From: Acidihalobacter sp.
GTDB taxonomy: Bacteria > Pseudomonadota > Gammaproteobacteria > DSM-5130 > Acidihalobacteraceae
NCBI GenBank assembly: GCA_027013225.1
Contig: JALUXU010000006.1
Location: 1-64,000, forward strand
Direction of reading: 5' to 3'
Length of the DNA: 64,000 bases
The notes under the pieces are model-generated. The model worked only from the letters and a program-made list of their open reading frames with translations. It was not told where the DNA came from and made no database searches. Position numbers and translations under genes: made by a program. Below are positions 4,533 through 42,534 of the stretch, in pieces (position 1 is the first letter of the stretch; every line of letters begins with the position of its first letter).

Positions 4533-5789
4533 TCAAGCTTGTCGTCCACCCTTCGAAGCCTGTTCATAAAGCTCGATATAACGTCTGGCTTCGACAGATT
4601 TGTCATACTCTTCGACCGCGACCGCCCGGCAATTTTTCGCCATTTTGGCCCGTAGGGCAACGTCCTCGAGCAAATGGAGAATCTTCTCGGAAAGATCTAT
4701 CGCATCATTCGGCTTGGCCAACAATCCCGTCACGCCCGGCCGAACCACATCGGACACGCCGCCCACATCGAAAGCTGCCACCGGCGTCCCGCATGCCAGA
4801 CTTTCCATATTCACTCTCCCAAAGCTTTCAGAGCGACTGGGCAAAACGAAAACATCGGCGGCGCTGTAACAGATCGATTTCAATCGCTCGTTGGAGACAA
4901 ACCCCAGAGAAAACACGTCCATCTCGCAGGCTTCTGCCAGATTCTCGCCCCCATTGCCAATACACAGCAATGTCGCAGCCAGTCTTACATCCGACGGAAG
5001 CGCATTCAAAAACTGCACTAAAAGGTCCATGCCTTTTTGCTGACGGCCAAAATCACTGGCCATCGCCATAATCACCTTGCGTTCAGGATCGAGACCCAAT
5101 AATTCACGCGCATGCATGCGTGGATAAAACGGCTTGTAGGCATTCACGTCCAGACCGCGTGGGATATGGTGAATCCTGTGTTTTCGTAACATGCTGCGCT
5201 GAGCCTGTTTTTGCATCCATACGCTAGGGGCGACGAATTGGATATCGCAGCGATCCCACACTTTTTTTTTCAGTCGCCAATCGAGCCAGGTGCCATCCCT
5301 CCAGACCGGCGCATGAATCGAAAGATCGGGGCATGAACCGCAACCGGTTTCCCATTTCCGACATTCCCCCAGCTTGCTGTCGCCCGGGAATGTACAGTGT
5401 CCCGTCATCGACCACATGTCCGTCAAAGCGAAGAAGGCCGGTTTGTCACGCGTCAGTTTAGGTAGCGCCAGATAGGACAAGGTGCCACTATGGATTCCAT
5501 AAAAGTGGACGATATCCGCTTCGCGATAGGCTGCCAGGCGATCGACATGGAATGAGCTCAAATGATGAATGTCATTCAGCCCCATACGCCGAGTGAAAAA
5601 ACGCAGGATGTGCTCTGTACTGCTCAGAGAGGGCAGACTGATCACGTTGTCTTTGTTGCCGCTTTTATTCAGGCATAGGATGTTGACGCCCACCCCCTGG
5701 GCTTGCAATGAATCGGCCAGCGTCATCATCGATGCGGTGGTGCCGTCCCCATGCCGATTGTCGCTGAAGTTAAAAAAGCAGACTTTCAT
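4533..5789 (-). CDS. Glycosyltransferase family 4 (GT-B)
   Basis: A 418-residue GT-B transferase, probably using a nucleotide-sugar donor on a lipid-linked or growing glycan at the inner membrane. The C-terminal donor site shows ESFGRVNMESLACGTPVAAFDVGG, the usual GT4 E-x7-E pattern. The middle has a cysteine-rich insert, TDMWSMTGHCTFPG then GCGSCPD, typical of a WcaC-like subgroup. Start 5789 was chosen over 5846 because GGGAGATT lies just upstream and the protein then begins with the canonical strand MKVCFFNFS. It is the last gene of the minus-strand glycan island. Acceptor and sugar cannot be read from sequence. Confidence 0.85.
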   Translation of the reverse strand: MKVCFFNFSDNRHGDGTTASMMTLADSLQAQGVGVNILCLNKSGNKDNVISLPSLSSTEHILRFFTRRMGLNDIHHLSSFHVDRLAAYREADIVHFYGIHSGTLSYLALPKLTRDKPAFFALTDMWSMTGHCTFPGDSKLGECRKWETGCGSCPDLSIHAPVWRDGTWLDWRLKKKVWDRCDIQFVAPSVWMQKQAQRSMLRKHRIHHIPRGLDVNAYKPFYPRMHARELLGLDPERKVIMAMASDFGRQQKGMDLLVQFLNALPSDVRLAATLLCIGNGGENLAEACEMDVFSLGFVSNERLKSICYSAADVFVLPSRSESFGRVNMESLACGTPVAAFDVGGVSDVVRPGVTGLLAKPNDAIDLSEKILHLLEDVALRAKMAKNCRAVAVEEYDKSVEARRYIELYEQASKGGRQA

Positions 5790-38671: not shown

Positions 38672-39226
38672 ATGACTCAACTACCTCCCCGCCAGCAACA
38701 GATCGTTCAGACCCATGCCGGCCTGATCGTCAATGTCGTTAAGGCCATTCAAAACCCCGAGTTACGGCCCACGCTTGAACAACTGCTTCGCACCAGCGAG
38801 GAAAACGGTTGGCACGCTCTGGTGGCGGCGATCCGGAAGATCCTCAACGGCTCACGCGAGATGAGCCTGGTGGCTACTCTCGACGAAGAAGACGCCACTA
38901 TCGTGGAGGCCATTCTGCGCGGCATACAGAACCCGGCCACCCTGCCCGATCCCGGCGCCAAGCCAGACCCGATACTGGCCGCGCCCGGCCTGGCGGGCAT
39001 GATCCATGCCTGTACCCGCGGCGATGTGCAGGCATTGGAACTGCTTTCCCAGATGGCGGAACAAATGACCCGCGCGGGAGGCGATCTCGGCCGTCTCGGC
39101 GGCCTCATGCGCCGTCTGGTGGAAGGTGAACGCGACCCGGAAAAACTCTCCTACGGCATGGGGCCACAGGGTGTTTCGTTGCTGCTGGCCGTGCTGGAGG
39201 AACTAGGCCGCCATGAAGCGCATTGA
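38672..39226 (+). CDS. Conserved hypothetical protein downstream of valS
   Basis: A 184-residue predicted soluble, mostly helical protein, beginning 24 nt after valS with GGAGG upstream of its ATG, so it is probably co-transcribed. Internal features are VATLDEEDATIVEAILRGIQNP, a Gly-rich AGGDLGRLGGLMRRLVEGER, and a C-terminal helix. I do not recognise the family and see no catalytic motif. A transposon remnant begins 11 nt after its stop, so downstream sequence may have been altered. Confidence 0.75.
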   Translation: MTQLPPRQQQIVQTHAGLIVNVVKAIQNPELRPTLEQLLRTSEENGWHALVAAIRKILNGSREMSLVATLDEEDATIVEAILRGIQNPATLPDPGAKPDPILAAPGLAGMIHACTRGDVQALELLSQMAEQMTRAGGDLGRLGGLMRRLVEGERDPEKLSYGMGPQGVSLLLAVLEELGRHEAH

Positions 39227-39289
39227 TTGATCCGATCTTGACTCCTCCCCTCCCTGAAGGGATGGGATTCCCAATTCACGGAGAACTGC

Positions 39290-39576
39290 TTATGCCAGAC
39301 GTATCCGGCACAAGCCTGACATTTCCTCCAAGGGCCCTCCAAAGGCGTTTGACAAGTCCGCAAGCCCTGCTGAAGTGGCCCGCAGGACACCTCGTTGAGC
39401 CACGGATAATCGCCGGAGCGATTGAGGTTCCGTCAGCTGGGCGTTGGCTTCGACATAACCGATTTTTTCCTGTCGCTGGTAGTACGCGTCGGTGTGCCAG
39501 TGCAGGACGTGCGCGCCAGCAGTTCCGCTTGCTCGGGCGTTGGATAGAACAGGTGCTTGAACGCCTTTTTAGCCAT
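39290..39576 (-). pseudogene. TnpB fragment (IS200/IS605 accessory nuclease), degenerate
   Basis: Reading from the ATG at 39576 on the minus strand gives MAKKAFKHLFYPTPEQAELLART, a standard TnpB N-terminus (20-odd residues). In intact proteins a conserved GCVRFVYNWAL segment follows, but it is deleted. The reading continues in shifted frames with TDAYYQRQEKIGYVEANAQLT and then WLNEVSCGPLQQGLR. After that only about 20 further residues remain before the hairpin end, so the RuvC nuclease domain is missing. It is not functional. Confidence 0.72.
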
Positions 39577-39621
39577 GCCTCACGTGGTATATGGCATCAT
39601 GCGAATATCCAAACATGGAGG

Positions 39622-39663
39622 CGCGCATCCCTCCATGCCCTGAAGGGCATGGAGGGATGCGCG
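39622..39663. repeat. Perfect 20-bp hairpin over the start of the GGDEF-EAL gene
   Basis: Arms 39622-39641 and 39644-39663 are perfectly complementary with a 2-nt GA loop. The right arm contains GGAGGG immediately followed by the ATG at 39657. A transcript crossing it would hide both the ribosome-binding sequence and this start codon. It appears to be the left-end hairpin of the decayed IS605-type element. Confidence 0.85.
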
Positions 39664-42395
39664 AAAGACTTGTGAGGTCGGGCTACCGGCAGCGGCTGGC
39701 TGCTCGATTCCTCATCGTCGCCCTGACGGGTCTGCTGCCACTGAGCGGCTTGTTGATCTGGAACGTCTATGGGGGGTATCAACAAACGCGTGCCGAAAAA
39801 ATTCATGATTTAAAGTCCATTGGGCGCGCGACGGCTTCCAGGATCGATTTCGATCTGGCCATGTCGCAGGCAGTGTTACAGGAAATTGCGGCTAGCGGGG
39901 GCGTTCGATCCAGCAACGCCCGCGCATGCAGCCGTTTTCTTGAAACGATTCACCGCCCATGGGCATTCGCCTACACCCTATTTTCCCGCAGCACGCCGAA
40001 AGGCATCGTCGATTGCTCCTCGCTGGGGCCGAAAAAAGTGAACGTGGGGTTGACGCCCAACATTCGCGCTGCGCTCGCCGGACATCTCGGCATCGGCCCA
40101 GCACGCATCGGACCGCAAAGCGGCGTGCCGGTGCTGCCTGTTTCCTGGCCGCTACGCAACGCCTCCGGACGGATTATCGCCATCCTCAACACCGGCATCC
40201 GCTTGTCCTGGCTGAAACAGACTTTCCCCGTCGTCTCACAGGGACAAAAAGGCGAACACCTCTGGTTGCTTCAAAACGGACAGAGCATACTGAGCCTGCC
40301 GAATAAAGCGCATCCGCCTGTCTGCGCCGGGGGCTACCCACCCTCAGGGAAAGTCAAAATCTGCCGGATGAAAAGCGCAAGCGGCCACTCACAACTGATC
40401 CTGGCCTTTGGTTCCGACTTCGCTTCGCATCTGCAGGTACTTGTAGCCTCTCCCCTGTCCTCAATTGAGGCGCCTGCCTACCAAAACGCATGGATCGCAG
40501 GCCTAGTCACCTTGATAGTGATACTGCTGACCAGCGTAGCCATGTTGGGCCTCGGTCATCGACACCTATTTCTTCCCCTGAAATCCATTGAGGAACTCGT
40601 ACGCCGGTTCGGCTCAGGGGATTATCGCGCCCGCTTGCCTGAAAACTGGAAAGCCAGTCACAAAAATAACGAAATCGTGACCCTGGGCATACAGATCGAG
40701 CACCTGGGCGGGCTCCTCGAGAAAAGCTTGGCGCAACTTGCCTTGGAACGGGACCACTTGGCCCGGATCGCCATGAGCGATCCATTGACCGGCTTGCCCA
40801 ACAGGCGGGCGTTGGATGAAGAACTTGAACGCGCCCTGGCGCGCGCGAAACGCGGGGATACAAAACTGGCCGTTTGCGCCCTGGATCTGGATGGATTCAA
40901 GGCTGTCAATGATCATTATGGGCATGAAGCCGGCGACCTTGTCCTGCAAGCCATCGGCGAGCGCTTGCAAAACAACTTGCGAAAAAACGATTTCGTCGCC
41001 CGTGTCGGTGGTGATGAATTCGTCGTACTGCTCGAATTCTTTGCCCAACGCACGTCGTTTACAGAGCTGTTCGACAAGATAGGCCATGTGGTTCGGTCTC
41101 CGGTTCTCTTGCCCGGGGAAAATTCTGTCCAGGTGGGCGTAAGCATGGGTGTTTGCCTTTTCCCCAACGACGGATGCGCTCCGTCAAATGGGTTGCTGCG
41201 CGCCGCGGATCAGGCCCTGTACCAAAGCAAGGCGCACAAGGCGGACCGGCAACGTTTCTGGGTCGTGGTCGGGGAATCGCCACAACTGGAACGCAACCGT
41301 TTTCAGGTATTGCTCGACCAGGGCGCGCTGGAAGTGGCGTATCAGCCGATCCTTAACGTGCGCAGTGGGCGCATCGAAGGTGTAGAGGCTCTGGCCCGTT
41401 TACGCGACGGCGACCGCCTGTTGGCGCCGCGGCAATTCCTCGATGAACTCGATGCGAAGGATCGTTCTAGACTCACCCTCCAGATTCTGGACCGATTGCT
41501 GATGGATCTGCGCGCCCTGGATTCGGAAGGGTATTCTCTTTGGGGCGCTTTCAACGTCGAAACCGATGACTTGCAAACTCCCTTGCTTCGGCATGAGCTG
41601 AGCAAGCGGCTCGAGGCCATTGGCTTCGAGCCGGCCCGCCTGCACCTGGAGATACTCGAAGGTGGTGATTTTCTCAATCGAAAAGAGGCCATGGATGAAT
41701 TGCAGGCGCTGCATCTTCTTGGCGTTAAATTGGCCTTGGACGACATCGGCAGCGCTTATTCCTCATTACTGAGGCTCAAGGAACTTCCTGTGGACGTGAT
41801 CAAGCTCGATCAGGCATTTGTCCGCGGCCTCGAGAAGCGTCCGGCAGATCTTTCCTTTGTCCTGGCCATGCAAGAGCTCGCCAATGATCTTCGCATCGAA
41901 ATGGTGGTCGAAGGCGTGGAGACGCGCCCGATAGCCGACGCCGTCGAAGTCTTGGGCACCCACTTCGTGCAAGGCTATGCCCTGGCCAAGCCCTTGCCGT
42001 TTAAGCAATTAGCCGTTTTTATAGCCACTTTTGAATTTTCAGCCAAGGCTTATCCGGATTCCTTGCTGGGTCTGTATGCGTATCACCTGATGTTTGACCG
42101 CAAACTGGCCTCGCTGATTTTCACGAATCCGCAAATGGTTGCAAAAGCGCGCGTTGCCGACGCCAGGCAGTGCAAATTCCACGCGGCCATGAAGCGACTG
42201 GGTATTGGAGAGGAAAGCCACTTGGCGCGCCTGCATGCCGAGTATCACCTTCTTCTATCCGAGGCCAATGACAAGACCGCCTGGGTGCGGTTGCGAGATG
42301 TCAATCGACAGATTCTGGAAGTCATCGCCACGCTATGGGAAAAAACCCGCCAAGCGGCCGAAGCCTCCAAACCCGCCGCTTATGACACGACCTAG
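39657..42395 (+). CDS. Membrane GGDEF-EAL protein with periplasmic sensor, HAMP and C-terminal CZB-like domain
   Basis: A 912-residue c-di-GMP enzyme. Order: TM1 (about 18-38), a periplasmic Cache-like sensor, TM2 (about 277-305), HAMP, GGDEF (RVGGDEF at 450-456, with an inhibitory RKND site in RxxD spacing), EAL (GVEALARL at about 577; LDDIGSAYSSL, EGVET and QGYALAKPL present), then a C-terminal domain with H810, C839, H860 and H864 in the order and spacing of zinc-binding CZB domains. Both catalytic motifs look intact, so it could make or degrade c-di-GMP. The start is unsure: ATG 39657 lies in a transposon hairpin, GTG 39672 is an alternative. Confidence 0.85.
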   Translation: MRERLVRSGYRQRLAARFLIVALTGLLPLSGLLIWNVYGGYQQTRAEKIHDLKSIGRATASRIDFDLAMSQAVLQEIAASGGVRSSNARACSRFLETIHRPWAFAYTLFSRSTPKGIVDCSSLGPKKVNVGLTPNIRAALAGHLGIGPARIGPQSGVPVLPVSWPLRNASGRIIAILNTGIRLSWLKQTFPVVSQGQKGEHLWLLQNGQSILSLPNKAHPPVCAGGYPPSGKVKICRMKSASGHSQLILAFGSDFASHLQVLVASPLSSIEAPAYQNAWIAGLVTLIVILLTSVAMLGLGHRHLFLPLKSIEELVRRFGSGDYRARLPENWKASHKNNEIVTLGIQIEHLGGLLEKSLAQLALERDHLARIAMSDPLTGLPNRRALDEELERALARAKRGDTKLAVCALDLDGFKAVNDHYGHEAGDLVLQAIGERLQNNLRKNDFVARVGGDEFVVLLEFFAQRTSFTELFDKIGHVVRSPVLLPGENSVQVGVSMGVCLFPNDGCAPSNGLLRAADQALYQSKAHKADRQRFWVVVGESPQLERNRFQVLLDQGALEVAYQPILNVRSGRIEGVEALARLRDGDRLLAPRQFLDELDAKDRSRLTLQILDRLLMDLRALDSEGYSLWGAFNVETDDLQTPLLRHELSKRLEAIGFEPARLHLEILEGGDFLNRKEAMDELQALHLLGVKLALDDIGSAYSSLLRLKELPVDVIKLDQAFVRGLEKRPADLSFVLAMQELANDLRIEMVVEGVETRPIADAVEVLGTHFVQGYALAKPLPFKQLAVFIATFEFSAKAYPDSLLGLYAYHLMFDRKLASLIFTNPQMVAKARVADARQCKFHAAMKRLGIGEESHLARLHAEYHLLLSEANDKTAWVRLRDVNRQILEVIATLWEKTRQAAEASKPAAYDTT

Positions 42396-42430
42396 CAGCA
42401 ACTGCCAAGCAAGCCAAGGATGGCTTGCAC

Positions 42431-42528
42431 GCAGATCAAGCACGCCAAGTGCTTGATCTGCGGAGGGCGTCGCGGGCGCGTACCGCGACGATCCGGGTTG
42501 AAAAAGGGCGGAAAGGCCCTTTTTCAAC
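42431..42528. terminator. Three consecutive hairpins, the last a bidirectional terminator
   Basis: Hairpin 1: GCAGATCAAGCAC / GTGCTTGATCTGC (42431-42443, 42449-42461). Hairpin 2: CGTCGCGG / CCGCGACG (42468-42475, 42483-42490). Hairpin 3: GTTGAAAAAGGGC / GCCCTTTTTCAAC (42497-42509, 42516-42528), with A and T runs inside the stem so it can terminate either way. It separates the convergent GGDEF-EAL and DUF1631 genes. All three stems are perfect. Confidence 0.7.
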
Positions 42529-42534
42529 TCCCTG

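Follow-up and report, generated by a model that had tools for sequence, protein, structure and literature searches.

The analysed stretch, hereafter the window, comprises 64,000 nt of an Acidihalobacter sp. genome (contig JALUXU010000006.1). Within it, a gene for a GGDEF-EAL c-di-GMP enzyme is preceded by the remains of a transposon, one end of which holds an apparent Shine-Dalgarno (SD) sequence and start codon. The features discussed below are as follows, with start codons named by their first base.

38672..39226, plus strand: conserved 184-aa gene lying between valS and the element, family unknown
39238..39663, minus strand: internally deleted, frameshifted TnpB element (IS200/IS605 superfamily, IS1341-like), ~426 bp
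39238..39279, minus strand: right end of the element, ...GTGAATTGGGAATCCCATCCCTTCAGGGAGGGGAGGAGTCAA, whose subterminal hairpin and terminal TCAA are kept in intact relatives
39292..39675, plus strand: candidate leader ORF of 127 codons, with ATG39292 and a GGAG 8 nt upstream; it crosses the hairpin
39358..39576, minus strand: remnant of the TnpB N-terminus (about residues 1-83 of 380), split over two reading frames and containing a stop
39622-39663, no strand: perfect 20-bp palindrome, the left-end hairpin of the element with the family's internal loop zipped
39651..39659, plus strand: GGAGGG-ATG, transposon sequence with zero spacer, buried in the hairpin
39672..42395, plus strand: GGDEF-EAL gene of 907 aa, counted from its likeliest native start GTG39672

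The minus strand from 39576 encodes MAKKAFKHLFYPTPEQAELLART..., which is the N-terminus of TnpB with matches down to E = 1e-16, and the initial annotation of a decayed IS605-type element was thereby confirmed. The remnant shifts to a second frame (HVLHWHTDAYYQRQEKIGYVEANAQLTE), returns to the first (YPWLNEVSCGPLQQ) and is joined directly to the 3' (C-terminal) end of tnpB and the right end of the element. Both the right-end DNA and the N-terminus have counterparts in annotated TnpB elements of plasmids and phages. Comparison with relatives placed the right end at 39238 and the left end at about 39663 (+/- 2). The previously given element start of 39238 was exact, as independent plasmid TnpB elements begin to match at query base 12-13, that is, at window 39237/39238. 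The right-end hairpin CCCATCCCTTCAGGGAGGGG and the left-end palindrome both align to relatives, and the presence of subterminal hairpins at both ends together with the lack of terminal inverted repeats is characteristic of the IS200/IS605 superfamily. The TnpB coding sequence survives through remnants only, namely N-terminal residues ~1-83 and right-end DNA, and the catalytic RuvC domain and zinc ribbon are deleted. The sequence thus identifies the element and both its ends, and confirms it as an internally deleted IS1341-like TnpB fossil of the IS200/IS605 superfamily. A domesticated TnpB was rejected because the coding sequence is destroyed.

The element resembles the IS1341-like TnpB-only elements on an Azotobacter chroococcum plasmid (NZ_CP066311.1) and a Methylophaga pinxianii plasmid (NZ_CP095734.1) in its right end (GGGAATCCC...hairpin...AGTCAA), its left-end palindrome upstream of tnpB and its TnpB N-terminus. 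Unlike them, the window copy is only ~426 bp long, frameshifted, without a TnpB product and zipped at the left-end hairpin. The plasmid and phage searches, which gave N-terminal or right-end matches, yielded no copy that shares the deletion or the zipped hairpin. An intact parent element was not found in the source genome, where the other TnpB loci read belong to other subfamilies. A second remnant of the same element family, comprising the right end only, lies on another contig of that genome (C69, G000:C69:112460-112581; L035 ~5460-5580); it is 83-85% identical to the window copy and shares its AGTCAA end.

The two arms of the left-end hairpin, 39622-39641 and 39644-39663, are 20 nt each and 100% complementary. 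GGAGGG (39651-39656) directly abuts ATG39657 with a spacer of 0, and both lie in the right (3') arm. The RNA of 39600-39720 has a minimum free energy of -74.9 kcal/mol (z = -7.9), and none of 200 shuffled sequences was equally stable. Arm complementarity, position and fold statistics hence bear out the earlier description of a perfect 20-bp hairpin holding GGAGGG-ATG. The computed fold of the hairpin by itself amounts to -42.3 kcal/mol at 37 °C, and in the model the helix stays unchanged and fully formed from 20 to 95 °C (-51.9 to -9.1 kcal/mol). The pattern GCATCCCT-N14..26-AGGGATGC occurs once in the source genome, and among 369 genomes of the class one other carries a match, with an unrelated loop. 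A repetitive or REP-like hairpin was rejected on the copy number of 1. A Rho-independent terminator was likewise rejected, as a T-run is absent 3' of the stem and the terminator scan did not list the site.

Among the copies compared, the perfection of this hairpin is peculiar to that in the window. In five intact relatives the left end has a short foot and, beyond an internal loop of 6/7 nt, a stem of 8-9 bp, with fold energies between -18 and -24 kcal/mol, while in the same comparison the window left end forms one continuous helix of -41.6 kcal/mol. A sixth, more distant relative (L079) folds similarly to the five, which is indicative only as its input sequence was approximate. The 3' linker of the window copy, AGGGAT, is still the family sequence. 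The 5' linker reads ATCCCT in place of the family GRGAAA, and the helix is continuous because ATCCCT is exactly the reverse complement of AGGGAT. One-sided changes of such a kind are what results when template switching takes place within a quasi-palindrome (PMC8794818). Therefore, we infer that the left-end quasi-palindrome was probably made perfect by template switching during replication, of which the window hairpin would be a clear natural case.

As for the translation start of the GGDEF-EAL gene, three N-extended in-frame alternatives (ATG39591, ATG39615 and ATG39657) precede GTG39672, which lies in the frame of ATG39657, 15 nt downstream of it and just outside the hairpin. Homologues of the N-terminal sensor region were compared across the 369 class genomes. 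With residues numbered from ATG39591, eight distant homologues begin within positions 25-29, and for five of them the start falls exactly on residue 28, the position of GTG39672; an independent MAFFT alignment agrees. As these homologues are only 22-26% identical, the evidence is good, not conclusive. GTG39672 is most likely the native start, and the three upstream ATG codons look element-supplied because the homologue starts fall on or near GTG39672.

The distance from GGAGGG is 0 nt to ATG39657 and 15 nt to GTG39672, and neither is a normal SD distance. The view of GGAGGG-ATG as the translation signal of the gene is therefore unsupported, given the missing spacer, the origin of the motif in the element's left end and the preference of the homologues for GTG39672. 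A start at ATG39657 regulated by melting of the hairpin, for instance as a thermosensor, was the initial proposal, and the motif is indeed in frame and inside the hairpin. We consider this version highly improbable: besides the zero spacer, opening ATG39657 would cost 36.1 kcal/mol, the helix is fully formed over the whole computed range of 20-95 °C, and the site belongs to the conserved transposon left end (AGGGAT in relatives). The RNA thermosensor was accordingly rejected, since the computed helix does not open at physiological temperature, and the suggested melting by temperature is contradicted by the same stability. The predicted occlusion of GGAGGG and ATG39657, on the other hand, is supported by computation for any read-through transcript. 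At GTG39672 the occlusion appears to be modest, because in silico removal of the element lowers the opening cost to a limited extent: from 23.8 to 18.4 kcal/mol for -15..+12, and from 14.7 to 14.5 kcal/mol, hardly a change, for -4..+12. It should be pointed out that GTG39672 lacks an optimally spaced SD and would remain structured with the element removed (18.4 kcal/mol).

Ribosomes may nevertheless reach GTG39672 through a frame within the element. The candidate leader ORF starts at ATG39292, with an anti-SD duplex of -6.6 kcal/mol, an 8-nt spacer and an opening cost of 9.8 kcal/mol (vs 7.2 kcal/mol for the start of the 184-aa gene). Its stop codon TGA39673-39675 overlaps GTG39672 by 4 nt as GTGA, the stop/start overlap expected of termination-reinitiation coupling. 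Coupling through such an overlap and coupling through unfolding by upstream translation are both known (PMC6728339). The leader frame is open from TTG39223 and stop-free over 39214-39673; on the plus strand across the element it holds 0 stops, while the other two frames hold 7 each. Its codon score of -0.10, compared with 0.23-0.42 in real genes, shows that a coding signature is absent. In shuffled sequences the specified frame stays open in 0.9% and any plus-strand frame in 3.2% of cases (p ~0.01-0.03), and intact relatives of the element are likewise mostly free of stops in this phase; the openness is hence only mildly unusual and may be due to chance. A selected new gene in the leader frame was rejected, for the codon signature is missing and the openness is only mildly improbable. 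Plus-strand scans from the upstream gene to the start were negative both for terminator-like sites and for sigma-70-like sites scoring 9 of 12 at standard spacing.

The same hairpin could also be crossed by an in-frame fusion. Translation from ATG39591 (or ATG39615) would give a 934-aa protein with an element-encoded N-terminal tail of 27 residues, as the open GGDEF frame extends upstream to 39573, with ATG39591 as the start that gives the longest product. The opening cost there is moderate (11.1 kcal/mol), and a ribosome crossing the hairpin would unfold it. Such a fusion is unlikely, however, in view of the weak SD pairing at ATG39591 (-2.8 kcal/mol), the background score of the 27 extra codons (-0.11, although the native gene also scores weakly over its first codons) and the lack of a comparable tail in all of the homologues compared.

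The encoded enzyme itself appears intact. Domain matches were obtained to PF00990 (E = 2e-42) and PF00563 (E = 5e-48), and its GGDEF, EAL and DD motifs align to the solved relative 5m3c, as in genuine GGDEF-EAL proteins. The coding sequence is open over ~900 codons with a host-like codon bias of 0.23. Because the gene is intact although the adjoining element is heavily decayed, it is mildly suggested that it stayed useful, or under selection, after the insertion. This bears on another reading, in which the gene is silenced or nearly so, having been cut from its translational neighbour and blocked by the hairpin, and is intact since the event is recent. None of the starts of the gene has an SD that is both well-spaced and accessible, a promoter-like site at 9 of 12 was not found in the element, and the gene is dispensable in another genome of the genus that lacks it at this locus. 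Silence nonetheless seems doubtful to us: the open frame, its host-like codon bias and the intact GGDEF and EAL motifs stand beside an element that has meanwhile lost ~1 kb and become frameshifted, which suggests selection on the gene after the insertion.

The insertion site gives a picture of the locus before the element arrived. Members of the IS200/IS605 superfamily normally insert 3' of a short target, without deletion or duplication. No target duplication is evident here, and the CTTTC before the left end resembles the TTTT/TTTC in relatives. Given the usual mode of insertion in the superfamily, the old leader was probably displaced and not replaced, and the initial statement that the insertion replaced the original leader is unlikely. 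When the flanks are joined to the inferred empty site, GTG39672 follows the stop codon of the 184-aa gene at a distance of 19 nt, which is short enough for a coupling of the native start to that gene before the insertion to be conceivable. Orthologues of the 184-aa gene, 71-78% identical, directly follow valS in four relatives (five genomes in all); no Pfam or NCBIfam match was found for the protein.

In the one other genome of the genus examined, the GGDEF-EAL gene is absent from the locus corresponding to window 39227-42534, while valS, the 184-aa gene and a convergent PacR-like gene are present. Because that genome has the neighbours without the gene, the GGDEF-EAL gene was either gained in the source lineage or lost there. 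The 184-aa gene and the PacR-like gene are ~210 bp apart in that genome, and three members of the taxonomic family have another convergent gene after the 184-aa gene. A scan of genome contigs found no near orthologue of the GGDEF-EAL gene.

Taken together, we favour the following account, to which we give a probability of roughly 0.55. A TnpB-type element, oriented on the minus strand, would have entered the space between the 184-aa gene and the native start of the GGDEF-EAL gene, only a few bases before GTG39672, and would then have decayed with the loss of ~1 kb from the interior of tnpB. The left-end palindrome, which relatives have in imperfect form, would have become a perfect 20-bp one, probably by replication template switching. 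Both the hairpin and GGAGGG-ATG would belong to the transposon left end, and the gene itself would start elsewhere. Provided that the gene is expressed at all, read-through transcription from upstream would be the likeliest supply. The leader frame from ATG39292 to the TGA ending at 39675 would be translated within the element, and its ribosomes would unfold the hairpin, terminate at GTGA and could restart at GTG39672. Of the expression options offered in the initial annotation, melting by the ribosome together with the downstream GTG is thus the best supported, and melting by temperature is dropped. The leader step taken by itself, in which a dead transposon became a translational leader whose antisense frame unfolds the zipped hairpin and passes ribosomes on via GTGA, is tentative; we rank it above the N-extended protein from ATG39591 and above silence, but not by much. 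If it is true, the output of a c-di-GMP enzyme would be tied to leader translation.

Parallels exist in known systems. According to PMC12594629 (citing Beuzon and Casadesus 1997 and Beuzon et al. 2004), the left-end stem-loop of Salmonella IS200 sequesters the ribosome-binding site of tnpA. A stem-loop of the same superfamily overlaps a ribosome-binding sequence near a start codon in both cases; the Salmonella one regulates the transposon's own gene, whereas the window hairpin faces outwards to a host gene, of which it would be at most a putative regulator. On Borrelia plasmids, IS605 stem-loops were left beside lipoprotein genes (PMC2775950), and here too the terminal stem-loops of a decayed IS605-type element are retained beside host genes. 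The Borrelia stem-loops, however, lie at gene 3' ends and are conserved among homologues, while the window hairpin is one isolated instance, next to the 5' end of a gene. Translational coupling as described in PMC6728339 is similar in that a 4-nt GTGA overlap is present and upstream translation would unfold the structure hiding the start. It differs in that the upstream frame in the window is antisense transposon debris and a putative leader.

As a whole, the initial annotation is partly supported, in that its observation is confirmed and its interpretation is partly wrong: the locus holds a fossil TnpB element next to a gene, an unusually perfect hairpin at the left end of the element, a start codon that the gene probably does not use and a candidate coupling leader. 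The case illustrates how gene calling can be misled by a start codon within a transposon hairpin: what looks like an SD-ATG comes from the transposon, and the native start is probably outside it. The locus also offers a cheap test of whether transposon debris can act as a translated leader for a signalling enzyme, although its general weight is modest, being one decayed insertion in one genome.

At the other end of the gene, 41980-42395 encodes a ~110-residue C-terminal extension past the EAL domain. It has no Pfam match and is partly common to several GGDEF-EAL proteins of the same taxonomic family, with matches reaching residue 859-886. Further hairpins lie 3' of the gene at ~42405-42490, and a strong terminator-like palindrome (GTTGAAAAAGGGCGGAAAGGCCCTTTTTCAAC) occupies 42496-42530 between the convergent GGDEF-EAL and PacR-like genes.
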